From: Pelagibius marinus
GTDB lineage: Bacteria; Pseudomonadota; Alphaproteobacteria; Kiloniellales; Kiloniellaceae
DNA length: 64,000 nt
Assembly: GCF_014925385.1 (NCBI RefSeq)
Contig: NZ_JACSDK010000003.1
Coordinates: forward strand, 186,001 to 250,000
Direction of reading: 5' to 3'
Each line of letters begins with the position of its first letter. The stretch's first letter is position 1. The position numbers and the translations under genes were made by a program. Of this stretch, positions 6,738 through 24,096 are shown piece by piece. A model generated the notes under the pieces. The model was not told where the DNA came from. It saw only the letters and a program-made list of their open reading frames with translations, and did no database searches.

Positions 6738-7249
6738 GACAGGAAGAGGGGGTCTGGCACCGCCTTGATGTCGTGGCCCGCAGCATCTCGCCCTTCTTCG
6801 TGACGCTGCTGCTGGTCCTCTTCGCCCTTCTGCCCCTGCACATCGCCGACCTGTCGCCCATCGTGCCCGCGCTGGCGCTGATCGGCGTGTTCTTCTGGTC
6901 GGTGCACCGTCCCGATCTCATGCCCATCTGGGCGGTCTTCCTGATCGGCCTGGTGCAGGACGTGCTGACCGGCGGCGTCATCGGCCCCGGCATCATCGGC
7001 CTGCTGGTGGCCCACGCCCTGGTGGTGTGGCAGCACCGCTTCTTCCTGGCGGCCTCCTTCGCCGTCATCTGGTTCGCCTTCATGCTGGTGGCAGCCGCGG
7101 CCCTGGCCGTGACCTGGCTCTTGACGAGCATCGCCATGATGACGCTTCTGGACCCGGGTCCCGTGTTCTTCCAGTACCTGGTGACCCTCGCCTTCTACCC
7201 CTGCCTGGCCTGGGCCTTCCTGCGCGGCCAGCGGCTGTTCCAGCGCTAG
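6734..7249 (+). CDS. mreD: Rod-shape-determining protein MreD
   Basis: A 171-residue, strongly hydrophobic membrane protein with five or so predicted transmembrane segments, and sparse charged loops such as HRPDLMPIW, typical of MreD. MreD is part of the elongasome with MreC and RodA/PBP2. It starts at a GTG overlapping the mreC stop by four bases, which implies translational coupling. The identification rests on position and membrane topology together, since MreD sequences diverge strongly. Confidence 0.93.
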   Translation: MRQEEGVWHRLDVVARSISPFFVTLLLVLFALLPLHIADLSPIVPALALIGVFFWSVHRPDLMPIWAVFLIGLVQDVLTGGVIGPGIIGLLVAHALVVWQHRFFLAASFAVIWFAFMLVAAAALAVTWLLTSIAMMTLLDPGPVFFQYLVTLAFYPCLAWAFLRGQRLFQR

Positions 7250-7266
7250 GGGGACAGGGGCCGGCC

Positions 7267-9168
7267 ATGCTGCAGAAGAACGAAGACAACGAACGCCAAA
7301 GGGCCTTCACGCGCCGCGGGCTGTTGCTGGGCGGCGCCCAGACCCTGCTGCTGGCCGGGCTGGCCGGGCGCATGTACTACCTGCAGGTGATCGAGTCCGA
7401 CCGCTACAAGACCCTGGCCGAGGACAACCGCATCAACCTGCGCCTGCTGCCGCCGCCGCGCGGGCGCATCCTCGACCGCTTCGGCCTGCCGCTGGCCACC
7501 AACCGGCAGAACTTCCGCGTCGTCCTGGTGCGCGAGCACGCCGGCGATGTCGAAAAGGTGCTGATGGCGCTGTCGCGGCTGATCGAGCTGAACGAGCATG
7601 ACACCAAGCGGGTGCTGCGCGAAGTGTCGCGCAAGCGCGGCTTCGTGCCGGTGACGGTGCGCGAGAACCTGACCTGGGACGAGGTCAGCCGCGTCGAGGT
7701 GAACGGGCCGGAGCTGCCGGGCGTCACCATCGAGATGGGCCAGATCCGCGACTATCCCTACGCCGATTCCATGGCCCACGTGCTGGGCTACGTCGCCGCT
7801 GTGGCCGAGCGCGACCTGACCGGCGACCCGCTGCTGGAGCTGCCGGGCTTCCGCATCGGCAAGAACGGCATCGAGCAGAAGTACGACCTGGCCCTGCGCG
7901 GCAATGCCGGGACCAGCCAGATCGAGGTCAACGCCTACGGCCGCGTGATCCGCGAGCTGAACCGCGAGGAAGGCAAGCCCGGCGACGAGCTGGTGCTGAC
8001 CGTCGACGGCGGCCTGCAGACCTTCGTCCATCAGCGCCTGCAGGGCGAAAAGAGCGCCTCGGCCGTGGTCATGGACATCGAGAACGGCGACGTCCTGGCT
8101 CTGGCCTCGGTGCCCAGCTTCGACCCCAACGCCTTCAACATCGGCCTGACCTACAAGCAGTGGAACGACCTCATCAACGATCCGCTGCACCCCCTGACCA
8201 ACAAGGCCATCGCCGGCATGTACGCGCCGGGCTCGACCTTCAAGATGATGGTCGCCCTGGCGGCGCTGAAGGCCGGTATCAACCCCAATCAAAAGGTCTT
8301 CTGCCCGGGCTACATGACCCTGGGACGCTCGCGCTTCCACTGCTGGAAGCGTGGCGGCCACGGCTGGGTCGACATGCACGAGGGCATCCAGCATTCCTGC
8401 GACGTCTATTTTTACGACACCTCGCGCAAGGTCGGCATCGACAACATCGCCGCCATGGCCAACCGTTTCGGCCTGGGCGAGAAAGTCGGCATCGACCTGA
8501 ACGGCGAGAAGGGTGGGGTGATCCCGACCCGGGACTGGAAGCTGGCCAATATCGGCGAGACCTGGCAGGGCGGCGAGACCCTGGTGGCTTCCATCGGCCA
8601 GGGCTTCGTGCTGGCCACGCCGCTGCAGTTGGCCACCATGGCGGCCCGCATCGCCAGCGGCAAGCAGGTGACGCCGCGCCTGACGCGCGGCGTGCGCGCT
8701 GACGCCGAACCGCCGGAGGGCGAGGCGGCCGAGGCCGCGGTGCCGGACTTCGCGCCGCTGGAGGTGCCGCCCGCCCACCTGAAGGTCATCCGCGAGGCCA
8801 TGGACGCGGTCAGCAATCACCCGCGCGGCACCGCCTATCGGGCGCGCATCCAGGAAGAGGGCATGGAGCTGGCCGGCAAGACCGGCACCTCCCAGGTGCG
8901 CCGCATCACCTTGGCCGAGCGCGCCGCCGGCGTGACCAAGAACGAGCAGCTGCCCTGGCGGCGGCGCGACCACGCGCTTTTCGTCTCCTTCGCGCCCGTG
9001 CACAAGCCGCGCTACTGCTGCGCGGTGGTGGTCGAGCACGGCGGCGGCGGTTCCGCGGTGGCGGCGCCGATCGCCCGCGACATCCTGCTGGAGACCCAGC
9101 AGCGTGACCCGGCCGGGCGCCGTTCCCTGCCCATCGTGGCGGCCACGCAGATCGTTGAGCGCGGCTGA
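7267..9168 (+). CDS. mrdA: Penicillin-binding protein 2 (peptidoglycan transpeptidase)
   Basis: This elongation-specific DD-transpeptidase cross-links peptidoglycan in the lateral wall. The 633-residue protein has an N-terminal membrane anchor at about residues 18-38 and a dimerisation/pedestal domain beginning with PPPRGRILDRFGLPLATN. The transpeptidase domain carries the catalytic SxxK as STFK (S323, K326), the second motif SCD (S377-D379) and KTG at 538-540. The ATG at 7267 is chosen over the upstream extension because the membrane anchor follows it directly. Its stop overlaps the rodA start in a TGATG arrangement. Confidence 0.97.
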   Translation: MLQKNEDNERQRAFTRRGLLLGGAQTLLLAGLAGRMYYLQVIESDRYKTLAEDNRINLRLLPPPRGRILDRFGLPLATNRQNFRVVLVREHAGDVEKVLMALSRLIELNEHDTKRVLREVSRKRGFVPVTVRENLTWDEVSRVEVNGPELPGVTIEMGQIRDYPYADSMAHVLGYVAAVAERDLTGDPLLELPGFRIGKNGIEQKYDLALRGNAGTSQIEVNAYGRVIRELNREEGKPGDELVLTVDGGLQTFVHQRLQGEKSASAVVMDIENGDVLALASVPSFDPNAFNIGLTYKQWNDLINDPLHPLTNKAIAGMYAPGSTFKMMVALAALKAGINPNQKVFCPGYMTLGRSRFHCWKRGGHGWVDMHEGIQHSCDVYFYDTSRKVGIDNIAAMANRFGLGEKVGIDLNGEKGGVIPTRDWKLANIGETWQGGETLVASIGQGFVLATPLQLATMAARIASGKQVTPRLTRGVRADAEPPEGEAAEAAVPDFAPLEVPPAHLKVIREAMDAVSNHPRGTAYRARIQEEGMELAGKTGTSQVRRITLAERAAGVTKNEQLPWRRRDHALFVSFAPVHKPRYCCAVVVEHGGGGSAVAAPIARDILLETQQRDPAGRRSLPIVAATQIVERG

Positions 9169-10322
9169 TGGCGATCGATATCTTCCTTTCCCGGCGCAAT
9201 CCGGAGCTGACCCTGCGGCAGAAGTTCTGGCAGCTGAACTGGGGCATGGTGCTGCTGCTATGCCTCATCGCCGGCGTCGGCTTCGCCATGCTGTACTCGG
9301 CGGCCAACGGCTCCATGACGCCCTGGGCCTCACGCCAGATGATCCGCTTCGGCCTCGGCCTGGTGCTGATGTTCACCGTGGCGCTGATAGATATCCGGTT
9401 CTGGTTCCGCTACGCCTACCTGATCTACTTCGCCGCCTTCGCCCTGCTGGTGGCGGTGGAGGTGATGGGCACCATCGGCATGGGCGCGCAGCGCTGGATC
9501 GACCTGGGCTTCATCCGCCTGCAGCCCTCGGAGATGATGAAGGTCGCCCTGGTGCTGGCGCTGGCCCGCTATTTCCACGGCGTCGCCAGCGAGGACATCG
9601 GGCGGCCGACCTACCTGATCCTGCCGATCATGCTGGCCGTGGCCCCGGCGGGCCTGGTGTTGAAGCAGCCCGATCTGGGCACCGCGGGCATGCTGCTGCT
9701 GGCCGCCGGCGCGGTCTTCTTTGCCGCCGGGGTGCGCTGGTGGAAGTTCGCCCTGGTGATCGTCGCCGGCCTGGGCGCCATTCCCATCGGCTGGCAGTTC
9801 CTGCACGACTACCAGAAGGCCCGGGTGATGACCTTCCTGAACCCGGAGAACGACCCTCTGGGCGCCGGCTACCACAGCCTGCAGGCGATGATCGCCTTCG
9901 GCTCCGGCGCGGTCACCGGCAAGGGCTTCATGCAGGGCACCCAGAGCCACCTGAACTTCCTGCCGGAAAAGCAGACCGACTTCATCTTCACCATGCTGGC
10001 CGAGGAATTCGGCCTGGTCGGCAGCCTGGGCCTCCTGGGGCTCTACTTCCTGGTGCTGGCCTACGGCCTCGCCATCTCCCTGCGGGCGCGCAACCAGTTC
10101 GCCCGCGTCCTGGCCCTCGGCCTCACCACCAACCTCTTCCTCTACGTCTTCATCAACATGGCCATGGTGATGGGCATGTTCCCGGTGGTCGGCGTGCCGC
10201 TGCCCCTGGTTTCCTACGGCGGCACCGTGCTGCTGACGGTGATGATCGCCATGGGCCTGATCATGTCCTGCTACATCCACCGGGACATCCGCATCTCGCG
10301 CCGCGGCACGGCCGAGGTCTAG
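9168..10322 (+). CDS. rodA: Peptidoglycan glycosyltransferase RodA
   Basis: A SEDS-family glycosyltransferase that polymerises lipid II together with PBP2. The 384-residue polytopic protein has about ten membrane segments. It includes the conserved GAQRWIDLGFIRLQPSEMMK motif, the KQPDLGTAGML segment, the large extracytoplasmic loop with NPENDPLGAGYH, and the C-terminal VGVPLPLVSYGGT motif. It starts on the A of the mrdA stop codon (TGATG), so the two partners are translationally coupled. It is the last gene of the shape cluster; also called mrdB. Confidence 0.97.
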   Translation: MAIDIFLSRRNPELTLRQKFWQLNWGMVLLLCLIAGVGFAMLYSAANGSMTPWASRQMIRFGLGLVLMFTVALIDIRFWFRYAYLIYFAAFALLVAVEVMGTIGMGAQRWIDLGFIRLQPSEMMKVALVLALARYFHGVASEDIGRPTYLILPIMLAVAPAGLVLKQPDLGTAGMLLLAAGAVFFAAGVRWWKFALVIVAGLGAIPIGWQFLHDYQKARVMTFLNPENDPLGAGYHSLQAMIAFGSGAVTGKGFMQGTQSHLNFLPEKQTDFIFTMLAEEFGLVGSLGLLGLYFLVLAYGLAISLRARNQFARVLALGLTTNLFLYVFINMAMVMGMFPVVGVPLPLVSYGGTVLLTVMIAMGLIMSCYIHRDIRISRRGTAEV

Positions 10323-10573: not shown

Positions 10574-10649
<76 letters not shown>

Positions 10650-11212: not shown

Positions 11213-12160
11213 GTGAGGGCCCGCTTTCTCTTGTCCAATCAACGACCAAGATACAACTGGAACGATATCGTCTATTTCCTGGAAGTGGCGCGGCAGAAGA
11301 GCCTCGTCAGGGCGGCCGAGAAACTGCGTGTCGACCACACCACGGTCAGCCGACGTGTGCGGGAGTTGGAGCGCAGCCTCAACACCTCGCTGTTCTCTCG
11401 GGGCAAGTCCGGCTTCAACCTCACCGAGACCGGTCTGCGCCTGCTGGAGTTCGCCGAGGGAATGGAAGGGCATGCGAACTCCATCGCCGAGGTCATCGCC
11501 GGCGTCGATGGCGGGGAGGCCGGCGGCGCCGTACGGCTCGCCAGTATGGAGGGGATCGGCAGCCTTTATCTCACGCGGTTGTTCGGCGATTTCAATAAGC
11601 GTTATCCGGCCGTCCAGATTGAACTGATCACTGACTATCGCATGCTCGATCTGAGCCGCCGCGAAGCGGACGTCTTCATCAGTTTCTTCAAGCCGGTGGG
11701 CAAACGCCTGTCTATCAAGAAGCTTGGAGAGTTCAAGGTCTCTCTCTTCGCCTCGCGGCGCTATCTGGCGTCGCACGGCCACCCTTCGACCATCGAGGAA
11801 CTCGACAACCATACCTTCGTCGATTTCATCGACGAGCTCGTGCATGTCCGCGAGAACCGTTGGCTGTCGGATATCCTGAGGCCGCCCCAGATCGTCTTTC
11901 GCAGTACCAGCCTGGTGGCGCAGTACCTCTATGCTTCGAACGACCAGGCGATCGCCATGCTGCCATCCTTCGTCGCGGCGAATAACCGGGACCTGATTCC
12001 TGTGATGCCCGACCTCTTCACCGTGCGCGACATTTGGCTTTCCGTCCACGAGGACCTGCTGCACATCACCCGCATCAAGGCGATCCTCTCTTTCCTGGAA
12101 AAACAGATCGCCAAAGACCGCGACTTCCTCATGCCGCAACTCGCCCAGACCGGAGAGTGA
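11213..12160 (+). CDS. LysR-family transcriptional regulator
   Basis: The 315-residue protein has an N-terminal winged helix-turn-helix at about residues 15-75, including AAEKLRVDHTTVSRRVRELE, followed by a substrate-binding regulatory domain. The VDHTTVSRR style is that of the LysR subgroup often acting as single-gene activators. A GTG at 11213 is chosen because it gives the family's usual length; the frame is open further upstream without homology. Palindromes at 12199-12291 lie between it and the ABC/nitrilase/allophanate hydrolase operon on the same strand, which is its most likely target. The inducer is unknown. Confidence 0.85.
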   Translation: MRARFLLSNQRPRYNWNDIVYFLEVARQKSLVRAAEKLRVDHTTVSRRVRELERSLNTSLFSRGKSGFNLTETGLRLLEFAEGMEGHANSIAEVIAGVDGGEAGGAVRLASMEGIGSLYLTRLFGDFNKRYPAVQIELITDYRMLDLSRREADVFISFFKPVGKRLSIKKLGEFKVSLFASRRYLASHGHPSTIEELDNHTFVDFIDELVHVRENRWLSDILRPPQIVFRSTSLVAQYLYASNDQAIAMLPSFVAANNRDLIPVMPDLFTVRDIWLSVHEDLLHITRIKAILSFLEKQIAKDRDFLMPQLAQTGE

Positions 12161-12471
12161 CGCATTTTTTTGCGCTCTGGCGCCCTGCGAAGCCGCTGAA
12201 AGATTAGGCACTTTCAAGATGTGCCGAATCTTTGAGCATGCAAAAATGTCAAGTAGGCTAACGAATTGGCAGAATATTCTGCAAATTTGCACATAGCCTT
12301 GCAAAACTGGGTCTTCCTATCTGCAGCGATCTTCCGATCATGGTGCCTGTGCATTGCAGCATGCGATCCCGAAAACGGCCTGATAGGGCCGATTTCGAGA
12401 CTTAGCAGACGCAAAGGATGCACGCCGGGACGGTGGACGCCGGGCCGGGGCGCAAGAACCAGGGAAGCTCC
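12161..12471 (+). promoter_or_regulatory. Probable LysR operator/promoter region
   Basis: This 311-base gap carries strong dyads. AAAGATTAGGCAC (12199-12211) pairs with GTGCCGAATCTTT (12221-12233) with one mismatch around a 9-base loop. The perfect palindrome GCAGAATATTCTGC (12269-12282) overlaps a second perfect palindrome TGCAAATTTGCA (12280-12291). AT-rich dyads of this kind suit a LysR-type regulator of the downstream operon. The first could alternatively end the LysR transcript, though no T run follows. No gene is visible. Confidence 0.5.
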
Positions 12472-13260
12472 ATGTCTGCACGGATACTCAAAGCCCTAAA
12501 GAAACCCAAGGCGCGACGCTGTGCGGAACTGACCCTGGGCCCGGTCTTCCTGGTGGCGGTGTGGTGGATCGCCTTTGCCGGGGAACTGGTGAACAAGGAC
12601 CTGCTGCCCTCGCCCTTTGCGACCATCGCCGATACCGCGGTCGCCATCGCCGCTGGGGACATGATTCACGACTTCCTGCAAACCCTGATCCGGGTTGCAT
12701 ATTCCATCGCCATCGCGACGGTCCTGGGCGTGCCCATCGGCATCGCCCTGGGCGCCAAGGACAGCGTTTACCGCTCCCTGGAGTTCGTCATCGACTTCTT
12801 CCGCTCGACGCCGGCGACAGCCATGTTTCCGCTGTTCCTGCTGCTCTTCGGCCTGGGCGACATCGCCAAGATCGCGGTCGCCGCCTTTGCCGCCTGGTTG
12901 GTGATCGTCTTCAACGTCGCCTACGGTGTGATGAACGCCCGCCAGACCCGCATCCTGGCCGCGCGCTCCATGGGGGCGTCGAGCCTGCGCATCTTCAAGG
13001 ACGTCATTTTCTTCGAGACCTTGCCGCAGACCTTTGTCGGTCTGCGGACGGCCGTTTCCATTGCCCTGGTCGTCATCATCGTCGCCGAGATGTTCATCGG
13101 CGCCGTCGACGGCATGGGGCACCGGATCATAGACGCCCAGATTTCCTACCAGCTGACGGATATGTATGGGTCGATCCTCGCCGCCGGTGCGATGGGCTAC
13201 GGCCTCAATCTCGGTCTGCTCATCGTCGAGAAGACGATCGTCCACTGGTCAGGACGCTAG
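12472..13260 (+). CDS. ABC transporter permease (nitrate/taurine/pyrimidine type)
   Basis: The 262-residue integral membrane protein belongs to the BPD_transp_1 family, with about six transmembrane segments. The cytoplasmic EAA-type loop reads AARSMGASSLRIFKDVIFF followed by ETLP, which docks the ATPase. The start at 12472 has AGGGAAG upstream; an earlier ATG at 12418 lacks one. Together with the NMT1-like binding protein and the ATPase that follow, it makes a complete importer of the SsuC/TauC/ThiX class. Being first in an operon that ends with two C-N hydrolases, it probably imports their substrate. Confidence 0.9.
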   Translation: MSARILKALKKPKARRCAELTLGPVFLVAVWWIAFAGELVNKDLLPSPFATIADTAVAIAAGDMIHDFLQTLIRVAYSIAIATVLGVPIGIALGAKDSVYRSLEFVIDFFRSTPATAMFPLFLLLFGLGDIAKIAVAAFAAWLVIVFNVAYGVMNARQTRILAARSMGASSLRIFKDVIFFETLPQTFVGLRTAVSIALVVIIVAEMFIGAVDGMGHRIIDAQISYQLTDMYGSILAAGAMGYGLNLGLLIVEKTIVHWSGR

Positions 13261-13315
13261 GCGTGGGCCCAACCGGCAGCAACAGACAAACCGACCAAGA
13301 ACTGGAGGCTTCAAC

Positions 13316-14305
13316 ATGAAAAAGATCGTCTTCTCCACCACCCTGGCGGCGGCCTTGCTGTCGGCCGGCGGCGCCCAGGCAGCCTGCGATAAGATGGAAA
13401 AGGTCGTGGCCGCATGGCTGCCGATCATGCAGACCACGGCCTACTACGTGGCCCTTGAGGAAGGGCTCTTCGAGAAAAACTGCATCGAGATCGATTCGAA
13501 CAAGATGCAGTCGCCGAACCACATCATCGATGCCCTGGTCGCGGGGCGCGCCGACTTCGGCCCTCCGGGCGCCGCGGCGGGCATCGCGATGATCGCGGAA
13601 TCCAAGTTCCCGGGAACCTTTAAGGTGTTCGGCCTGCAGGGCGGCGGCATCCAGGTCGACCTGATCAACGACGGCCTCATCGTCCATCCGGACAGTGACA
13701 TCAAGAGCTTCGCCGACCTGAAGGGCAAGACGCTGGGCCACGTACCGGGCATTCAGTGGCGCACGATCTCGCGTCACATGGTGCGCGCCGCCGGACTCGA
13801 CCCCGACAAGGACGTGACCCTGACCGACCTTGCGGTCGCCATGCAGGTCCCTGCGGTGGCCGGCGGTAGCGTCGACGCCACCCTTTCACTGGAGCCCGTC
13901 GGCTCCATCGCCGCGGCCTCCGGCAAGGCCAAACGGGCGATGACCAACCCCGTGGCCTCAGTGATCGCCGACCCCTTTTATTCGGGCGCGGCGGTCCTGA
14001 CCACGAAGTTCATGCAGGAACGCCCCGACGTCGCCCGCAAGGTGGTCGAGGTGATCGACGAGGCGACCGACTTGGTGATGGCCGACTTCGACAAGTACAA
14101 GGTGATCATTCCCAAGTACACGGCCATCCAGGAATCGCAGCTCGACCTGCTGGCCAAGCCTTACCTGCGGCCGTTCCACGATCTCAACGAGACCGATCTC
14201 AACTCCTACCAGGCCTTCGTCGACGTCTTCGTTAAGGAGGGCGTGCTGAAGGAGCCGATGGACGTACGGGAGAAGATGCTGAAGCTCGCCGACCTCGCAA
14301 GTTGA
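13316..14305 (+). CDS. ABC substrate-binding protein, NMT1/THI5-like
   Basis: The 329-residue periplasmic protein has a clear Sec signal peptide (residues 1-22, cleavage after GAQA). The mature part follows the NMT1/THI5 and SsuA fold: AAWLPIMQTTAYYVALEEGLFE at the start (shown as a 20-residue-class motif around residues 32-53), then ALVAGRADFGPPG and SFADLKGKTLGHVPG. Family members bind pyrimidines, sulfonates, nitrate or similar small polar compounds. The ATG has GGAGG about 9 bases upstream. The ligand is unknown; the neighbouring nitrilase and allophanate hydrolase suggest an amide or ureido compound. Confidence 0.88.
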   Translation: MKKIVFSTTLAAALLSAGGAQAACDKMEKVVAAWLPIMQTTAYYVALEEGLFEKNCIEIDSNKMQSPNHIIDALVAGRADFGPPGAAAGIAMIAESKFPGTFKVFGLQGGGIQVDLINDGLIVHPDSDIKSFADLKGKTLGHVPGIQWRTISRHMVRAAGLDPDKDVTLTDLAVAMQVPAVAGGSVDATLSLEPVGSIAAASGKAKRAMTNPVASVIADPFYSGAAVLTTKFMQERPDVARKVVEVIDEATDLVMADFDKYKVIIPKYTAIQESQLDLLAKPYLRPFHDLNETDLNSYQAFVDVFVKEGVLKEPMDVREKMLKLADLAS

Positions 14306-14326
14306 ACGGGCAGGAGCTGAAGATCC

Positions 14327-15196
14327 ATGACAAGCAGCGTTGCCCGGGTCTCCGCTGATGGCATCGCGAGGGTGGGGGAGGATCTCCCCCACCCCGAGCG
14401 CCGGGAGACGGAACCGCCCATGCCCAAGACGTCCGCCCGCCAGCGCATGATCTCCATCCAGGGATTGAAGAAGTCATTCGGTGACACCGTCATCTACGAC
14501 AACTTCGACATCGAGCTGCCGCAAGAAGAACTGATCTCCATCTTCGGCCCCAACGGCTGCGGCAAGAGTACCCTGATCAACATGATCTCCGGCCTCATGC
14601 CGATGGACGCAGGCGAGGTGCTCTACGATGGTCAAACCATCAAGGAGACGAAGATCTCCTACGTATTCCAGAACTACCGCGAGGCGCTGTTCCCCTGGCT
14701 GCGGGCCATCGACAACATCCACTACCCGCTGAAAGTTATGGGGTTGCCGCGCCGGACGCGCGAGGAGCGTGTGGAGCAGCTGCTTGCCGATTTCGAGATC
14801 AAGATCGACCTCAACGCCTATCCTTACACCCTGTCCGGCGGGCAGCAGCAGACCGTCTCTATCCTGCGCGCCCTGGTGACCGAGCCGGAAGTGCTGTTCC
14901 TGGACGAACCGTTTTCTGCGCTCGACTACGAGATGACGCTCTTCATGCGCGAGCAGATCCAGAAGATCTACCTCAAGACCGGGACCACCACCCTGCTGGT
15001 CTCGCACGACTTGGAGGAAGCCGTGCAGCTGGCGGACAAGGTCTTGCTGCTGACACGGCGGCCGACCCGGGTCGCGGAGATCGTCGACGTTGGCCTGCCG
15101 TGGCCCCGGACGACCCAGGTGACCACGGACAGTCGCTTCGTCGATATCAAGCGGCACTGCCTAGAGGTTTTCTGGCGCGAAGTGAAAGCCAGTTGA
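14327..15196 (+). CDS. ABC transporter ATP-binding protein (SsuB/TauB type)
   Basis: The 289-residue ATPase energises the importer formed with the two preceding genes. Walker A is GPNGCGKST, the Q loop lies in VFQNYREALFPW, the signature is LSGGQQQ, and Walker B is VLFLDEPFSALD, with the switch histidine in LLVSHDLEEA. The start at 14327 is chosen for its AGGAG site. This gives an unusual 45-residue N-terminal extension; the domain proper begins near MISIQGLKKSFGD, and an internal ATG at 14420 is possible. The signature has Q in place of the usual arginine after LSGGQQ (LSGGQQQTVSILRAL), a mild deviation. Confidence 0.9.
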   Translation: MTSSVARVSADGIARVGEDLPHPERRETEPPMPKTSARQRMISIQGLKKSFGDTVIYDNFDIELPQEELISIFGPNGCGKSTLINMISGLMPMDAGEVLYDGQTIKETKISYVFQNYREALFPWLRAIDNIHYPLKVMGLPRRTREERVEQLLADFEIKIDLNAYPYTLSGGQQQTVSILRALVTEPEVLFLDEPFSALDYEMTLFMREQIQKIYLKTGTTTLLVSHDLEEAVQLADKVLLLTRRPTRVAEIVDVGLPWPRTTQVTTDSRFVDIKRHCLEVFWREVKAS

Positions 15197-15250
15197 CCGG
15201 CGCGCCAGAGCCCTCCCCCAGTTCATCGCCTAGTGAGAAAAGAGAACATC

Positions 15251-16924
15251 ATGACTACTCGCCGTTTCCGCGCCGCCGCCGTGCAGACGCTGGCTGCCCT
15301 TGGGGATTACGACCACAACATCGCCCTGGCGACGAAATTCGTCGAGGACGCCGTCCGGCAAGGTGTCGAGCTGGTTGTCTTCCCGGAGTGCATGGACACC
15401 GGTTACCTCTTCGATTCTCCGGCGCACTGCCGCGAGCTGGCAGAGACCGTGCCCGACGGTCCGTTTGTCTCGGCGCTGGCCACGCTGAGCCGGGAGCATG
15501 GCATCTATATCGCCAGCGGCATCACCGAGTGGGACGCGGGCAAGGAAAAGGTCTTTAACAGCGGCATCATGTTTGGGCGCAAGGGTGAAGTGGTTTGCCA
15601 CTACCACAAGCAGTTTCTCGCGACCCACGATCAGAACTGGTTCAGCTTTGGCGAACGGGGCTGCCCGGTGGTCGAAACCGACCTCGGCAAGATCGGCCTG
15701 CTGATCTGCTTCGACGGCCGCATTCCCGAGATCTTTCGCTCCATGGCAATACAGGGAGCGGAGGTCATCGTGGACATGGCGAACTTCTTTGCCATGGACC
15801 AGGCTGACATGTGGGGGCCGGCGCGCGCGTATGAAAACGGCCTTTGGCTGGTCGCGGCCACCAAGGCCGGCTATGAGCGTTCAATCTACTATCCTGGCGG
15901 CAGCATGATTGTCGATCCGAAGGGGAGAGTGCTCTCTAAGGTACCCTACGACACTCATGGCATGGCGGTGGCGGACATCGATCCGGAGGCCGCCGGCGAC
16001 AAGTCCATCTATACCGCGAACGACAAGATTGCCGACCGCCGGCCGGAAACCTACGGCATCATGACCGTGAGCTATGCCGACACGCCGGTCTCCACGGTCG
16101 CGGAAACGCCGATCGTGCCCGCCCGCTCGACCAGCAAGGTGGCCGCGGTGCAGATCCATGTGGATGACGAACACGGTGCCAGCGACGTTCTCAACATGGT
16201 TGAGCATGCGGCGAAACTGGGCATCAAGGTCATTTCTCTGCCCGAATACGCTTTCGCCAGGACTTGGCTGCCGAACGCGGACGAAGCCGCCGCGCTGGCC
16301 GGGGAAACCAAGGGCCTTGTCGCCCAAATCGGCGATATCGCCAGCCTTTACGGTTGCCTCATCGCCCTGCCGACGGTGGAGCGGGCCGCCATGGGACTCT
16401 ACGTCACCACCTATCTGATCGGTCCCGAAGGTCAGGAGATCGGCAAGTACCGGAAGACCCATCTGACCGCCGAGGAGCGCGCCTGGGCGGTGCCGGGCGA
16501 CGACTATCCCGTCTTCGAGACGCCGTTCGGCCGTATCGGAGTCATGTCTGGATATGACGCGGTCTTTCCGGAATCCTCCCGCTGCCTCGGGATTGCTGCG
16601 GCGGATATCATTCTCTGGCCCGCTTCCCTGCGCGAGCCCTTCGAGCGCGAGCTGATCGCTGTACCACGCGCCGAGGACAACCGGGTTGCCGTGGTACTGG
16701 CCAACCGCCTCGACTGCCCCTATCCCGGCGGCAGCCTAGTCATACCGCCCACCGGTTTCCCCCTGTGGGACATCAACGAAGTCGCGCCGCGGGTCCTCAA
16801 GGCCGGCGCGGTGATGCCGAAGCACATCGACCTCGCGGTCTGCCGCCAGAAGCAGATGATCCCCAAGGTCGACATGTTCGCCAATCGCCTGGTCGAGACC
16901 TACGCGCCCATCGTCGCCGCCTAG
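15251..16924 (+). CDS. Tandem-domain nitrilase-superfamily hydrolase with degenerate second domain
   Basis: A 557-residue protein made of two nitrilase/CN-hydrolase domains, whereas most members have one domain of about 270-300 residues. Domain 1 (about 8-250) has an intact Glu-Lys-Cys triad: E46 in FPE, K120 in HYHKQF, C153 in LLICFDG. Domain 2 (about 296-535) keeps E332 (LPEY) and K402 (KYRKTH), but the cysteine position is glycine (G434, VMSGYD), so it is probably inactive. The family cleaves amides, nitriles and carbamoyl groups. Placed between the importer and allophanate hydrolase, it may convert an imported ureido or amide compound to allophanate or a precursor. Substrate unknown. Confidence 0.88.
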   Translation: MTTRRFRAAAVQTLAALGDYDHNIALATKFVEDAVRQGVELVVFPECMDTGYLFDSPAHCRELAETVPDGPFVSALATLSREHGIYIASGITEWDAGKEKVFNSGIMFGRKGEVVCHYHKQFLATHDQNWFSFGERGCPVVETDLGKIGLLICFDGRIPEIFRSMAIQGAEVIVDMANFFAMDQADMWGPARAYENGLWLVAATKAGYERSIYYPGGSMIVDPKGRVLSKVPYDTHGMAVADIDPEAAGDKSIYTANDKIADRRPETYGIMTVSYADTPVSTVAETPIVPARSTSKVAAVQIHVDDEHGASDVLNMVEHAAKLGIKVISLPEYAFARTWLPNADEAAALAGETKGLVAQIGDIASLYGCLIALPTVERAAMGLYVTTYLIGPEGQEIGKYRKTHLTAEERAWAVPGDDYPVFETPFGRIGVMSGYDAVFPESSRCLGIAAADIILWPASLREPFERELIAVPRAEDNRVAVVLANRLDCPYPGGSLVIPPTGFPLWDINEVAPRVLKAGAVMPKHIDLAVCRQKQMIPKVDMFANRLVETYAPIVAA

Positions 16925-16966
16925 GCGGCAGGGGCCGCAAAGGGGTCTCGGGAGGGAATTCCAGGA

Positions 16967-18715
16967 ATGCAGAACGATTTCACAATCGCAGCCCTGCACA
17001 CGGCCTATGGAGCCGGTACAGGCGCCGGCGAGGTTGTCGAGGAGATCGAGCGACGCATCGCGGCGGTCGACGATCCCGGAATCTTCATTTCTCGGCCCAC
17101 GGCGGAGCAGATGAAGGCCGAGATCTCCGGGCTCGGTCCCTTCGATCCCGTTGCCAAGCCTCTGTGGGGCATTCCCTTTGCGGTCAAAGACAATATCGAC
17201 GTTGCCGGCATGGAGACGACCGCCGCCTGTCCGGACTTCGCCTATCGCGCAAAGGAAGACGCGACGGTGGTACGCCGGCTTCGGAACGCCGGGGCCTTCA
17301 TCATCGGAAAGACCAACCTGGATCAGTTCGCGACCGGTTTGGTCGGCCTGCGCACGCCCTATCCCGCCCCGCGCAATGCGCTGGACGACGCTCTGATCCC
17401 GGGTGGATCGAGTGCCGGCTCCGCCGTCGCCGTGGCGCGTGCCCTGTGCAGTTTCTCACTCGGTACGGATACCGCAGGCTCGGGCCGTATTCCCGCCGGA
17501 CTCAACGGGCTGGTTGGCCTCAAGCCGAGCTTCGGTGCGATTTCGACCCAGGGGGTGGTGCCGGCCTGCCGCACCCTGGACTGCGTCTCCATTTTCGCCC
17601 GCTCGCCCGCGGACGCCTCCGCCGCATTTGCTGAAGCACGCGGCTATGATCCCGCCGATCCCTATTCGCGGGTTGTGCCGGCCGGTGATGCCGGAGCGCC
17701 TGCGCAGGTGCAGCGTATTGGCGTGCCGCGGTACGAAGACCGCGTATTTTTCGGCGACGAGGCCGCGGCGGCGGGCTACCAGGCTGCAGTCGAGAGGCTC
17801 GCTGAAATGGGGTTGGAGATCACCCAACTGCCTTTCGACGCCTTCTACCGCGTGGCCCGGCTTCTCTACGAGGGCGCCTGGGTTGCCGAACGCTATGCTG
17901 CGATCGAGGCATTCATCACGTCCCGCCCCGAGGCCCTGCATCCCGTGACCCGCGCGATCATCGAAGGCGCGTCCGCCTTCTCTGCAGCCGATGCATTCAA
18001 GGCCGGTTACCAGCTCGCCGCTCTGCGCCGTGAAACGCGGAACCTCATGCAGGGAATCGATGCACTCTGCGTGCCGACCGCGCCGACGTGGTACACGGTT
18101 GAGGAAGTTCTTGCGGAACCGCTCGCCACCAACAGCAACCTCGGCACCTATACCAATTTCGTAAACCTGCTGGGCCTTTGCGGGATGACTGTCCCCGTCG
18201 GCCGGCGTGAGGACGGGCGGCCGGAGTCCGTCACCTTCCTCGGCCGCGATGGGGCCGACGCACAGGTGGCACAGCTGGCCGGGTCATTCCTAGCGGGACC
18301 GGTTCCGACGTCGAACGACACCGCAAAGCGCATAGGGATACTGGTTGTTGGCGCTCACATGTCCGGCCTGTCACTGAACGGCCAGCTGACGGCCCTCGAC
18401 GGGCAGTTCGAGCAGGCGACGAAGACTGCAGCGGACTATTGCCTCTACGCTTTGCCCGACAGTGAGCCGGCCAAGCCGGGCCTGCTGCGCGTGCAGCCGG
18501 GCAGGGGGACTGAAATAGAGGCGGAGCTTTGGTCATTGACGGAAGAGGCCTTCGGCGCGTTCGTTGCCGCCTTGCCGCCGCCCATGTGCATAGGGAACGT
18601 CAAGCTCGTCGACGGCAGGCTGGTGAAGGGGTTCCTGGTAGAGAGCGTGGCCGTCGATATGGCCCATGACATCTCGCAATTCGGCGGCTGGCGCGGCTTC
18701 GTGGCCGCGCAATAG
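16967..18715 (+). CDS. atzF: Allophanate hydrolase
   Basis: This enzyme hydrolyses allophanate to ammonia and carbon dioxide. The 582-residue product has the amidase-signature domain first (about 1-440) with the Ser-cisSer-Lys triad: K74 in FAVKDN, S148 in GGSSAGS, S172 in TDTAGSGRIP. The spacing (74 and 24 residues) matches characterised AtzF. The C-terminal domain (about 455-582) is the AtzF-specific one, with VVGAHMSGLSLNGQL. No urea carboxylase or biuret hydrolase gene lies nearby, so allophanate presumably arises from the operon's own substrate through the nitrilase-fold protein 42 bases upstream. Last gene of the operon. Confidence 0.93.
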   Translation: MQNDFTIAALHTAYGAGTGAGEVVEEIERRIAAVDDPGIFISRPTAEQMKAEISGLGPFDPVAKPLWGIPFAVKDNIDVAGMETTAACPDFAYRAKEDATVVRRLRNAGAFIIGKTNLDQFATGLVGLRTPYPAPRNALDDALIPGGSSAGSAVAVARALCSFSLGTDTAGSGRIPAGLNGLVGLKPSFGAISTQGVVPACRTLDCVSIFARSPADASAAFAEARGYDPADPYSRVVPAGDAGAPAQVQRIGVPRYEDRVFFGDEAAAAGYQAAVERLAEMGLEITQLPFDAFYRVARLLYEGAWVAERYAAIEAFITSRPEALHPVTRAIIEGASAFSAADAFKAGYQLAALRRETRNLMQGIDALCVPTAPTWYTVEEVLAEPLATNSNLGTYTNFVNLLGLCGMTVPVGRREDGRPESVTFLGRDGADAQVAQLAGSFLAGPVPTSNDTAKRIGILVVGAHMSGLSLNGQLTALDGQFEQATKTAADYCLYALPDSEPAKPGLLRVQPGRGTEIEAELWSLTEEAFGAFVAALPPPMCIGNVKLVDGRLVKGFLVESVAVDMAHDISQFGGWRGFVAAQ

Positions 18716-20005: not shown

Positions 20006-20452
20006 CTAGTGATGCCTGGTCCCGATTTTCTTCCAGCCGGCCCGCGGTGGCGCGGGAAGTGCGGTAGGCGCCGCCAAGTCGTTCAGGATCGGGCAGTCGG
20101 GGCGGCCGTCGCCGGAGCAGCAATGGGCGAGGTGCTTCAGGGTCGAAACCATATCCTGCAGTTCGCAGATCCGCTCCTCAAGCTCGGAAATGTGCGAGAG
20201 CGCGAGCTCCTTCACGTCCGCGCTGGCCCGCGACCTGTCCTGCCAGAGGCCGAGCAGCATGCCGGTTTTCTCGATCGAGAAGCCGAGGGTTCTTGCCCGC
20301 TTGATGAAGCGCAGCACGTGGACGTCCTCGGTGCTGTAGACCCGATAGTTGCTCTCGGTGCGCCGGGGCGGACTGATCAGCCCGATCGACTCGTAATGCC
20401 GGATCATCTTGGCCGAGACGCCCGATGCGGCGGCGGCATCTCCGATGTTCAT
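20006..20452 (-). CDS. cueR: MerR-family copper-responsive regulator CueR
   Basis: A 148-residue MerR-family activator. The N-terminal helix-turn-helix is MNIGDAAAASGVSAKMIRHY, followed by the IGLISPPRR wing and a long dimerisation helix. The Cu(I)-binding cysteines C112 and C120 are present in CCSGDGRPDC, with the same spacing and numbering as E. coli CueR; C111 is an extra cysteine. The protein distorts long-spacer promoters to activate them, and two such promoters occur here. The gene starts one base after the stop of the upstream reductase (TGACATG), so it is co-transcribed with copA and autoregulated. Confidence 0.93.
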   Translation of the reverse strand: MNIGDAAAASGVSAKMIRHYESIGLISPPRRTESNYRVYSTEDVHVLRFIKRARTLGFSIEKTGMLLGLWQDRSRASADVKELALSHISELEERICELQDMVSTLKHLAHCCSGDGRPDCPILNDLAAPTALPAPPRAGWKKIGTRHH

Positions 20453-20453
20453 G

Positions 20454-21494
20454 TCAACCTCCCGAGGCAGCCTCGGCGCTCGCCCGGCTGCCGTCTTCCG
20501 GTGTGAAGAAAACGTCGGCGTGCAGGTCGGTTTCCCGCAGATTGCGTTCGCGACAGACCTGCCCGACTGCCTCCACCATGGCCGGCGGACCCGCGACATA
20601 GGCCTTCCAGCCGGCCATGGCGTCGATATCGGCGGCGATCGCCTCGTGCACGAAGCCTTTGCGGAAGGCGGTTTCGCCCTTCGCAGCGGAGAGGACGACC
20701 TGGCGCGAGAACCGGGGGTGCGCCGCCATGAGCGCGTCCAGCTGCTGCTGACCGTAGACGTCGTGGCGGTCGCGGGCGCCGAAATAGACGTGGATCGGCT
20801 GGCGCATGTCGGCCGCAACGGCCCGGGACACAATCGAAAGCACGGGGGCCAGCCCCGACCCGCCGGCTACCGCCAGGATCGGCCTGGTGTGGCCTTCGCG
20901 CAGGTAGGCCTCTCCGAAGGGGCCCTCGACCTGCACCGCGACGCCCGGCTTGGCCGCCTGCGCGACCGCGGCGCTGACGCGCCCGCCGGCCACCTCGCGG
21001 ATGTGAAAGACCAGTTCGTCGTCGCGCCCGCTGGGCGCCATGGAGTAGTCGCGTGCCGGCAGGCCCGGAAAGGTCAGCCTGGCGTATTGGCCGGGCGCAT
21101 AGGCGAAGGGCGCCTCGAGACCTAGCCGCAGTTCCACGATGTCGTGAGTCAGGCGCCGCGTTCCGGCCACGCTGCCCGTCGTCTTGACCAGAGGGTGGGA
21201 GACGGTCTCCTGGGCCAGCCACTTGACCTCGATGTCGCTCAGCGGCTTGGCCCGGCAGGCGAGGATCAGGCCCTGCTCTCGCTCGTCTTCGCTCAGGGCG
21301 AAGCGCGTGTGCGGCAGCAGCTCGACCTCGCCCGACAAGAGGCGTGTCTTGCAGGCCCCACAGCGCCCGGAACGGCAGCCGTGAGGATAGGCGATGCCGG
21401 CGTCCAGAGCGGTCTCCAGCAGGGTCTTGTCCGCCGGCAGTGTGAGTGCGCGCTCCGCGGAAATAATCCTGGCCTTGAAGGTGTCGTTGTCCAA
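20454..21494 (-). CDS. 2Fe-2S ferredoxin / FAD-NAD(P) oxidoreductase
   Basis: A 346-residue electron-transfer reductase. The N-terminal plant-type ferredoxin domain carries the cluster ligands in HGCRSGRCGACKT plus the distal cysteine in ILACRA. It is followed by an FAD domain (RDYSMA) and an NAD domain (AVAGGSGLAPVLSI). This architecture is shared by the reductase components of oxygenases and by CDP-6-deoxy-delta-3,4-glucoseen reductase. No oxygenase is present. Lying between copA and cueR with 20 bases to copA and one base to cueR, it belongs to the copper operon. A role in reducing Cu(II) or supplying electrons under copper stress is an inference. Confidence 0.88.
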   Translation of the reverse strand: MDNDTFKARIISAERALTLPADKTLLETALDAGIAYPHGCRSGRCGACKTRLLSGEVELLPHTRFALSEDEREQGLILACRAKPLSDIEVKWLAQETVSHPLVKTTGSVAGTRRLTHDIVELRLGLEAPFAYAPGQYARLTFPGLPARDYSMAPSGRDDELVFHIREVAGGRVSAAVAQAAKPGVAVQVEGPFGEAYLREGHTRPILAVAGGSGLAPVLSIVSRAVAADMRQPIHVYFGARDRHDVYGQQQLDALMAAHPRFSRQVVLSAAKGETAFRKGFVHEAIAADIDAMAGWKAYVAGPPAMVEAVGQVCRERNLRETDLHADVFFTPEDGSRASAEAASGG

Positions 21495-21514
21495 GGGCGG
21501 GATCTCCTTGCGAT

Positions 21515-24043
21515 TCAGGCTGCGGCCGTGGCCGTGGCCGCGACGCTTGCCGCTGTCCCGGCCGTTTCGCCCTGCGGCGGCACGAAGCGGCGCAGGCGCA
21601 GCGCATTGGTGAGGACGAAGATGCTGGACAGCGCCATTGCGGCAGCCCCCAGCATGGGCGAAAGCAGCGGGCCGGCGGCGGGATAGAGAACGCCGGCGGC
21701 GACCGGGATCAGCAGGACGTTGTAACCGAAGGCCCAGAAAAGGTTCTGCTTGATGTTGCGCATCGTCGCCCGGCTGAGGGCGATGGCGTTCACCGCGCCC
21801 AGCAGATCGCCGCCGACCAGCACCACGTCGGCGCTTTCGATGGCGACGTCCGTGCCCGTGCCGATGGCGATGCCGATGTCCGCCTCGGCCAGGGCCGGCG
21901 CATCGTTGATGCCATCGCCGACGAAGGCGAGCAGATTGCCGCCCTCGCGCAGGTCGTGCAGCGCCGCCACCTTTCCTTCCGGCAGGACTTCCGCGATCAC
22001 CTGGTCGATGCCCAGCTCCCGGCCGATCGCCTTCGCAGTGCGGCGGTTGTCGCCGGTGATCATGGCGACCTGGAGGCCCAGGGCGTGCAGCTGCTCGACG
22101 GCCTGGCGGCTGGTCGGCTTCACCGGGTCGGCCACGGCGATGGCGGCGGCAATCTTGCCGTCCACGGCGGCGAAGAGCGGCGATTTGCCCTCGTCGGAGA
22201 GGCGCTCGATCTCGCCGCCGAAGCCGCGGAGTCTGTAGCCCAGTTTCGTCATGAAGCGGTCGGCGCCGATCTCGACCCGGCGTCCGTCGACCACCGCCGT
22301 GACACCGTAGCCGGGCACCGCCTCGAAGGCGCTGGGGTTTGCCAGGGTCAGGCCGCGCTGGGCGGCGGCGCTCACAATGGCCTCACCGATAGGGTGTTCG
22401 GACTGGGCCTCCACGGCGGCGACCAGCGCCAGGATCTCGGATTCATCGTGTTCCGGCATGGTCAGCAGATCGGTCAGCTCCGGACGGCCCTTGGTCAGGG
22501 TGCCGGTCTTGTCGAGGGCTACCACCGCCGCCGAGCGCAGCTGCTGCAGGGCGTCGCCCTTACGGAACAGCACGCCGGTCTCGGCGCCGCGGCCGGTGCC
22601 GACCATGATGGAGGTCGGCGTGGCTAGGCCCATGGCGCAGGGGCAGGCGATGATCAGCACAGCCACGGCATTGATCATGGCGTAGGTATAAGCCGGCTCT
22701 GGGCCGACGAGGGCCCAGGCCAGAAAGGTGACGGCGGCGATCGCCATGACGGCCGGCACGAACAAGGCGGTTACCTGGTCGACCAGCAGCTGGATAGGCA
22801 ACTTCGATCCCTGGGCCTCTTCCACCATGCGGATGATCTGGGCCAGCATGGTATCGGCGCCGACTTTGGTGGCGCGGAAGCGGAAGCTCCCGGTCTTGTT
22901 GATGGTACCGCCGATCACGGTGTCGGCCTCGCTCTTGGCGACGGGCAGAGGCTCACCGGAGATCATCGACTCGTCGATGTAGGAGGACCCCTCGATCACC
23001 TCGCCGTCGACGGGAATCTTCTCGCCCGGGCGGATGACGACAATGTCGCCGGCGGCGACCGCGGCCAGCGGCACTTCGACGACCGCGCCGTCCTTGACCA
23101 CCCGAGCGGACTTTGCCTGCAGGCCGACGAGGCGCTTGATGGCCTGGCTGGTGCGCCCTTTGGCGCGGGCTTCCAGCAGTCGCCCGACCAGGATCAGGGT
23201 GACGATGACGGCTGCGGCCTCGTAATAGATGTTGTGCGCCGCCGCCGGCAGCAGTTGCGGGGCGAAGGTAACCAGCACCGAGTAGCCGTAGGCGGCAGAG
23301 GTGCCGAGCGCTACCAGCGAGTTCATGTCCGGCGCGCCGCGCAGCAAGGCGGGAACGCCCTTCACCAGGAATCGCCGGCCCGGGCCGAACATCACGGCGC
23401 TGGCCAGCGCGAAGTAGAGCAGGTGGAGCGAAGGGGTCGATATGGCGAACCTCAGCCAGCCTTGGAAGGGAGGATAGAGGTGGCCGCCCATCTCCAGGAC
23501 GAAGAGGGGAAGGGTCAGCAGTGCGGCCACCATGACGTCGCGCCGCAGCTTTTGCACCTCGGCAGTCTTGCTTTCTTGACGGGATTCCAGGGCCTGGTCG
23601 TCCTCCGCGCTCTGCGCTGCATAGCCTGCTGCCGTGATCGCCTTCAGGACCTCGCCCAGCTGCGCGTTGTCGCCCAGCAGTTCCACGCTCGCCCGTTCGG
23701 TCGCCAGGTTGACCGTTGCCCCGACGACGCCGGGCACCTTATGGATCGCGTTTTCCACCCGCTTGACGCAGGAGGCACAGCTCATGCCGTCGATGGCGAT
23801 CTCGGTTCTGCGTGTCGCCGCGCCGTAGCCGCCCTTCCTGATGGCCTCGATCAGGGCCTCAAGGGAAAAATCCTTGGCCATCTCTACTGTCAGGGTCTCG
23901 TTGGCGAGGTTGACGCTGCTCGCGGCGACCCCGGGGGCGCGGCCGGCGATCGTCTCCACGCGTTTGACGCAGGAAGCACAACTCATGCCCTCGACGGTGA
24001 GGGTTAAACTGTTGGGGGCGGGTTGCACGGTCTGGCTGGGCAT
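21515..24043 (-). CDS. copA: Cu(I)-exporting P1B-type ATPase
   Basis: An 842-residue heavy-metal P-type ATPase exporting Cu(I) across the inner membrane. Two N-terminal HMA domains each contain [12 protein letters not shown]. The core shows the phosphatase TGE-type motif region (SGEPLPVAK), the intramembrane CPC in [15 protein letters not shown], phosphorylation site DKTGTLTKG, nucleotide-binding HP (SEHPIGEA), and hinge [10 protein letters not shown]. About eight membrane helices are visible. The start at 24043 is chosen for GGAGG upstream. A CueR promoter lies at 24066-24096. First gene of the copA-reductase-cueR unit. Confidence 0.97.
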
Positions 24044-24065
24044 CGGGAATCCTCCATTCCCTCTA

Positions 24066-24096
24066 TCCCTAAACTTTCCCATTATGGGAAGGTCAA
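24066..24096 (-). promoter_or_regulatory. CueR-type promoter of copA
   Basis: On the minus strand: TTGACC (24096-24091), a 19-base spacer with the dyad TTCCCATAATGGGAA, and the -10 TAGGGA (24071-24066). Both the -35 sequence and the 19-base spacing closely parallel the E. coli copA promoter controlled by CueR. The transcript would start about 20 bases before the copA ATG. Confidence 0.88.

Follow-up and report, generated by a model that had tools for sequence, protein, structure and literature searches.

What supplies the substrate of an allophanate hydrolase whose usual partner enzymes are missing? The question is raised by a 64,000-nt stretch of the Pelagibius marinus genome (GCF_014925385.1; contig NZ_JACSDK010000003.1, positions 186,001–250,000; hereafter the window), where six genes lie on the + strand at 11213–18715 in the order LysR-type regulator, permease, periplasmic binding protein, ATPase, tandem nitrilase (here NIT) and AtzF-type allophanate hydrolase. 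A sequence-only reading of the window had proposed these six genes, and their coordinates, strand, order and families are all borne out. We interpret the locus as an importer-coupled nitrilase-fold amidase feeding allophanate metabolism, in a nitrogen-scavenging operon that was horizontally acquired and is LysR-regulated, an interpretation to which we assign a probability of roughly 0.5. The binding protein, permease and ATPase would import a small ureido, amide or cyano-ureido compound, which would be hydrolysed by the N-terminal domain of NIT (Glu46-Lys120-Cys153), the C-terminal domain acting as a catalytically dead fused partner, perhaps in place of the other subunit of a nitrilase dimer. 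NIT would yield allophanate or a compound one step away, with AtzF splitting allophanate to ammonia and CO2; the favoured substrate would be biuret (biuret + H2O -> allophanate + NH3). Directly observed are the gene content, the lost Cys of the NIT C-domain, the lack of other detected allophanate sources, the conserved pairing of importer and NIT, and the recurrence of AtzF and other nitrile or ureido genes nearby; substrate, product, the role of the dead domain, a single transcript and LysR control are what we infer here.

NIT as the only evident candidate source of allophanate

The window AtzF (582 residues) scores 740.2 bits against the TIGR02713 equivalog model (cut-off 511.05) and 149 bits against PF21986 (AH_C domain), matches structure 4gyr at 514 bits and has, by motif, the amidase-signature residues K74, S148/S149 and S172; on its sequence it is predicted to be an allophanate hydrolase. 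Searches of the genome assembly (98.35% complete) gave no urea carboxylase match over cut-off, no relatives of BiuH/TrtA at E<=1e-25, no TIGR02714 match for AtzD/TrzD and no DUF1989. Two possible hidden sources were rejected. Contig C16 has partial urea carboxylase matches, but in a run that also encodes PxpA (over cut-off), an AccC-type subunit and a 5-oxoprolinase/urea-amidolyase-family protein, the fourth protein of the run having no match at E<=1e-40, and the six other Amidase-family proteins of the genome, one of them GatA, all fall under the AtzE cut-offs. Since no urea carboxylase, BiuH, AtzD, AtzE or DUF1989 was detected, NIT appears to be the only evident allophanate producer in this genome. 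The absence of the usual AtzF partners, noted earlier for the window, thus extends to the genome as far as these searches reach, and neither a urea carboxylase (cut-off) nor a biuret hydrolase (E<=1e-25), either of which had been named as a possible partner encoded elsewhere, was found.

One live and one dead nitrilase domain

NIT has 557 residues, is matched by CN_hydrolase in two stretches (269 bits) and is modelled (mean predicted local distance difference test score, pLDDT, 91.8) with a nitrilase fold in both halves, which share 25% identity. Residues were compared in an alignment of 56 rows, including truncated or split rows and two duplicates (L006, a partial copy of the window gene, and L010, apparently the same gene as L043). 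Counting rows with a residue at the position, the N-domain is invariant at E46 (52/52), K120 (54/54) and C153 (55/55); of 55 rows, 51 have Gly and 4 have Asp where the C-domain would carry its Cys, and the C-domain Glu is replaced in 18, the Lys in 17, of all 56 rows. The earlier description as a tandem nitrilase therefore holds for the fold, and two active sites are rejected; from these residues, only the N-domain can be catalytic. Seven distant tandem nitrilases, 31–38% identical to NIT, all carry Gly at the C-domain Cys position too, so that the live/dead double-domain architecture looks old. NIT would be a good example of an active enzyme domain joined to its pseudoenzyme twin, an arrangement kept across phyla and in distant relatives.

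The solved structures nearest to the N-domain are those of Pyrococcus nitrilase/amidase (template modelling, TM, score 0.94–0.95 by target length; 32–35% identity), among them a C146A amidase with bound glutaramide, in which the residue aligned with C153 of NIT is the substituted Ala.

A second tandem nitrilase family (L124-L126, L130, L131) has the N-domain catalytic residues and the C-domain Gly, as in NIT, and has ATP-binding cassette (ABC) ATPase genes nearby, but is only 31–35% identical over about four fifths of the length and lies in another gene neighbourhood. There the tandem nitrilase belongs to a conserved cluster that includes a pair of ABC ATPase genes and several further genes common to these loci, and it may represent another importer-coupled double nitrilase.

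A conserved importer–NIT module

The binding-protein model (pLDDT 88.5) has SsuA, TauA and a ThiY-type protein as its nearest solved folds, at 16–19% identity, with TM 0.69–0.78 to the SsuA structures of ranks 1–5, and fits the SsuA/TauA/ThiY type, although the cut-off for that family is not reached (TIGR01728; Table 1). A scan with NIT identified 53 loci, assigned by their titles to Alpha-, Beta- and Gammaproteobacteria, Cyanobacteria and one metagenome-assembled genome (MAG) of Actinomycetota; many of the others are also MAGs. Importer genes are present alongside NIT in 51/53, the exceptions (L055, L059) being contig ends with truncated NIT, and LysR homologs (61–79% identical) adjoin the module in most alphaproteobacterial loci. 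From Alphaproteobacteria to Cyanobacteria NIT averages 71% identity per column over 27 rows and the binding protein 73% over 17 rows, and this shared conservation suggests one substrate common to NIT modules.

Recurrent proximity of AtzF

AtzF lies within 10 kb of the module in 6/53 loci, the window being the seventh case. It directly follows NIT in L030 and L053 and directly precedes the module ATPase in L072, in all three on the same strand as the module; in L066 it belongs to the gene run that contains the module, and in L074 it lies beyond a divergent regulator. In L061 it is encoded on the opposite strand, at a distance of about 8 kb from the first gene of the module and about 11 kb from NIT. 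These cases require at least six label changes on the NIT tree (50/56 rows; L006, L010, L029, L055, L059 and L073 left out) and at least four on the AtzF tree (by starred branches), the latter built from 40 AtzF rows plus three of the 13 rows labelled E, among them L108, which is an AtzF with urea carboxylase next to it. Because the AtzF-proximal loci are scattered on both gene trees, the sequences suggest that relatives recruited AtzF to the module repeatedly, on separate occasions. A rough post-hoc Poisson estimate gives about 0.24 proximity cases expected, against seven with the window, or at least four independent ones.

Genomes of 50 of the 53 loci were searched for AH_C, BiuH, nitrile hydratase and AtzD (leaving out the truncated L055 and L059, and L064, apparently from the same genome as L062). 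AH_C was found in 47/50, against 2/14 control genomes, as long frames (>=538 residues) in 44 and only as short frames in three cyanobacteria; the genomes of L052, L068 and L075 gave none. Within one family AH_C is present in 17/18 genomes with NIT and 109/180 without (Fisher p 0.002), genomes with only a distant tandem nitrilase being counted as lacking NIT. AtzF is common in NIT genomes but often serves another route there; for the module it is a metabolic partner that recurs without being a constant component. In a cyanobacterial NIT genome (L165; G340:C43:112000-130000) a short frame of 142 residues encodes AH_C by itself, some 1.2 kb away from a BiuH gene, an arrangement that suggests a split allophanate hydrolase.

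Nitrile and ureido genes beside other copies of the module

Nitrile hydratase genes occur in 10/53 loci (L047, L062-L064, L067, L069-L071, L074, L075), L067 having just a beta piece. Eight of the 53 (L062, L063, L067, L069-L071, L074, L075) carry a BiuH-like hydrolase, the L069 copy scoring 266 bits against the NCBIfam BiuH cut-off of 370. Nitrile hydratase genes are followed by ATPase, permease, substrate-binding protein and NIT genes on one strand in L062 and L063; in L069, L070, L071 and L074, NIT is followed by a second NMT1-type importer, nitrile hydratase and the BiuH-like gene. Two cases have nitrile hydratase alone near NIT, the alphaproteobacterium L047 (distance about 4 kb) and genome G438 (about 7 kb). 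The co-occurrence of nitrile hydratase with NIT, in the same family and with the same counting of distant tandem nitrilases as above (16/18 vs 111/180, p 0.016), is weaker than that of AH_C.

The NMT1-type importer, nitrile hydratase and BiuH-like isochorismatase hydrolase form a recurrent unit with or without NIT (L161; L069:11724-17806; L062:1559-7000), L161 being the case without. This unit possibly converts a nitrile to a biuret- or guanylurea-like amide that is then hydrolysed. The window genome has one nitrile hydratase, on another contig and not near NIT (L157; G000:C15:237000-254000), with an alpha subunit 54% identical to that of L069.

A run in a Burkholderiales MAG (L066:3-8158) contains, in this order, AtzF, an importer, AtzD (521 bits; cut-off 153), a 60-residue AtzG-like open reading frame, homologs of AtzE (in two overlapping frames) and of AtzH, and then the NIT module, the start of the module ATPase overlapping the stop of the preceding AtzH homolog by 4 bases. 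Biuret and urea are described in PMC6219798 as dead-end products where a hydrolase for them is missing. Biuret is favoured as the substrate because an importer and a biuret hydrolase beside an atzD/E/H-type operon would recover nitrogen from such dead-end biuret.

Gene layout, regulation and origin of the window locus

Gaps between successive genes from the permease to AtzF are 55, 21 or 114 (for the two ATPase starts), 54 and 42 bases, short enough to point to one transcript covering 12472–18715; LysR and the permease gene are 311 bases apart (Table 1). The palindrome in this interval and its TGCAAA boxes are a candidate LysR operator. A scan for sigma-70 promoters and terminators gave nothing beyond the level of shuffled sequence.

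Table 1 Features of the importer–NIT–AtzF locus of P. marinus (positions in the window).
Feature	Position	Strand	Evidence and remarks
tRNA-Lys(CTT)	10574..10649	+	just upstream of LysR, edge of lower-GC stretch
LysR-type regulator	11213..12160	+	GTG start assumed; Pfam LysR_substrate 91 bits, HTH_1 63 bits
Likely regulatory region, LysR-permease interval	12161..12471	.	perfect palindrome GCAGAATATTCTGC, repeated TGCAAA boxes, no sigma-54 motif
ABC importer permease (SaoP/TauC/SsuC-like)	12472..13260	+	BPD_transp_1 64 bits; under cut-off of every NCBIfam model matched
NMT1/SsuA-type periplasmic binding protein	13316..14305	+	NMT1 74 bits; TIGR01728 108.5 bits (cut-off 163.5)
ABC ATPase	14420..15196 (alternative start 14327)	+	ABC_tran 110 bits
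NIT N-terminal nitrilase-fold domain, predicted catalytic E46, K120, C153	15251..16105 (border approximate)	+	
NIT C-terminal nitrilase-fold domain, Gly434 at catalytic Cys position	16106..16924	+	
Allophanate hydrolase (AtzF type), amidase + AH_C domains	16967..18715	+	TIGR02713, PF21986

In nine loci (Burkholderiales-type and one Enterobacterales MAG) a gene for a NifA-like sigma-54 activator is divergent from the module, and in 8/9 a -24/-12 sigma-54 motif lies 105–185 bases before the ATPase match; resampled sequence gave the motif in at most 2/9 over 400 trials, the pattern having been set after a first look. Sigma-54 control was rejected for the window copy, which lacks the motif.

NIT was not found in 60 other genomes of the same order, seven of the same genus included, at E<=1e-100, and an even sample of 299 genomes of the phylum (own included) contained one other close NIT (76% identity) and four distant ones. 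In the NIT tree the window copy groups (100/97) with Rhodospirillales, Chromatiales and Alcanivorax MAGs. GC content is 59–66% at 11–19 kb, compared with 68–71% at 6–10 kb and 67–68% at 20–24 kb, and is again 64% at 24–26 kb. The window contains no other copy of the tRNA-Lys end as an integration repeat. Given the lack of NIT in order relatives, its placement in the tree, the GC content and the position next to tRNA-Lys, the locus was probably acquired horizontally.

Just before tRNA-Lys, 7027–10322 encodes PBP2-like and RodA-like cell-shape proteins, and downstream of the operon, on the - strand (20006–24082), are genes for a MerR/CueR-like regulator, a ferredoxin-reductase-like protein and a copper-type P-type ATPase; both sets were recognised from translations.

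Weighing the pathway against its rivals

The pathway is plausible, and the nitrile and ureido neighbours and the recurrent, scattered proximity of AtzF lend it support. As the sequence-only reading had it, an imported compound cut by NIT and finished by AtzF is still the best account; given up are AtzF as a fixed member and more than one active site. Biuret or a related ureido compound would be the likeliest substrate; triuret or a cyanourea-like nitrile could also serve, and so might an unrelated amide.

Several observations weigh against this pathway. In 47/53 loci, several of them on short or early-ending contigs, the 10 kb around the module gave no AtzF; the adjacency of the nitrilase gene to atzF in relatives, on which the operon model had been made to depend, is thus largely lacking, with AtzF nearby in only 6/53. 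AtzF genes in NIT genomes were followed in 36 stretches, which do not cover every AtzF place (e.g. G299, G302 and G346 are left out) and include two from one genome (G342). These contain AtzE and AtzH homologs in 18, AtzH alone in one more (L109) and urea carboxylase in six; counting the 18 and the six, AtzF has its own AtzE/AtzH or urea carboxylase partner in 24/36. The genome-wide co-occurrence of NIT and AH_C, confounded by shared ancestry, was rejected as main evidence. The main argument against biuret is that BiuH is found over cut-off in 10/50 other NIT genomes searched, in which NIT would be redundant if it were a biuret hydrolase, since BiuH is already present. NIT falls under every cut-off of the named nitrilase/amidase subfamilies of NCBIfam (best scores 254 of 500 for archaeal nitrilase and 167 of 410 for N-carbamoylputrescine amidase), and the binding protein is too distant from its solved relatives for a ligand to be named. 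Finally, the sigma-54 motif is found in only 2/28 alphaproteobacterial-type loci and is absent in the window.

Of the rivals, the one that survives best is that importer–NIT and AtzF are independent nitrogen-scavenging functions, clustered by use under nitrogen limitation, the product of NIT never meeting AtzF. The 47 modules with no AtzF found nearby and the 24 AtzF stretches with partners of their own are what it would lead one to expect, and the sigma-54 motif and NifA-like gene of the nine loci fit general nitrogen control. We nevertheless consider independence unlikely, as the window-genome AtzF has no other detected allophanate source and as urea carboxylase is in 0/53 NIT loci, though it adjoins AtzF in 6/36 AtzF stretches; repeated proximity of AtzF in the face of this suggests a specific link.

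A variant concerns the substrate, making NIT a true nitrilase acting on a cyano-ureido compound, e.g. cyanourea + 2 H2O -> allophanate + NH3 in one step. Such a reaction would equal that of nitrile hydratase plus a biuret-hydrolase-like amidase, and nitrile hydratase and a BiuH-like hydrolase with its own NMT1-type importer do adjoin the module in Burkholderiales and Cyanobacteria, with nitrile hydratase alone near NIT in L047 and G438 and ahead of the module in L062 and L063. The nitrile hydratase cluster also stands without NIT, however, in L161, and the structures nearest to NIT include the amidase with bound glutaramide. The active-site sequence of NIT, CFDGRIPE, which we take to be closer to small-amide amidases than to the CWE motif of classical nitrilases, also counts against this variant, and we regard it as improbable.

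Transfer beside tRNA-Lys could have joined neighbours with no functional link, given that the locus looks horizontally acquired and that AtzF proximity is a minority arrangement (6/53), but the proximity recurs in unrelated branches and the gaps in the window are short, and chance is a very improbable explanation. Least probable of all is a shifted specificity of the window AtzF-like protein, which would then be no allophanate hydrolase and would undo the allophanate argument: its end branch, at 0.86 changes per column, is among the longest of the AtzF tree, and no other row there exceeds 54% identity to it, but it is well over the equivalog cut-off and keeps the amidase-signature residues and AH_C.

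The pathway through NIT to AtzF can be set in a wider proposal, offered tentatively and with doubt outweighing confidence, in which NIT represents an uncharacterised family of importer-coupled double nitrilases that convert biuret or cyanourea directly to allophanate or a precursor. The family would be unrelated to BiuH, AtzE and urea carboxylase, spread over three phyla and repeatedly joined to AtzF and nitrile hydratase and once to a cyanuric-acid run.

Comparison with known systems

If true, the pathway would give bacteria, including bradyrhizobia and cyanobacteria, an added route to scavenge nitrogen from by-products of fertiliser and triazines or from products of purine oxidation, for instance biuret and triuret, and a conserved, uncharacterised importer-enzyme module would gain a testable function. 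Searches of open-access PMC papers listed none that was recognised as describing this gene set, the nearest hint being one passage of PMC6219798. Burkholderiales/Comamonadaceae clusters mentioned there combine allophanate hydrolase with atzG-atzE-atzH and have ABC transporters and amidase enzymes downstream, a layout that resembles L066; that passage describes no nitrilase for them, and they may include the NIT module.

In the cyanuric acid operon atzDGEHF of Pseudomonas sp. ADP (PMC6219798), allophanate arises from ureido intermediates and the last step is AtzF, like the end step in the window. The window genome, by contrast, has no detected AtzD or AtzE, and a nitrilase-fold enzyme with an NMT1-type importer takes the upstream place. 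The biuret/triuret pathway of BiuH, TrtA, TrtB and AtzF (PMC7948467, PMC12625717, PMC5806882) likewise has an amide hydrolase giving allophanate or carboxybiuret en route to AtzF, and a half-life of about 20 minutes is estimated for carboxybiuret before it turns into biuret (PMC7948467). BiuH and TrtA are isochorismatase-like hydrolases, of which the window genome has no relative at E<=1e-25. Routes through urea or guanidine carboxylase and allophanate hydrolase (PMC11410670) have the final AtzF step in common with the window, and differ in relying on carboxylases: neither a urea-type carboxylase over cut-off nor DUF1989 was found in the window genome. The Pyrococcus nitrilase/amidase (PDB 3ivz, 1j31, 6ypa) shares the fold and the Glu-Lys-Cys residues of the N-domain, but NIT differs from that enzyme in carrying a second nitrilase domain, which is dead, and in its pairing with an importer.

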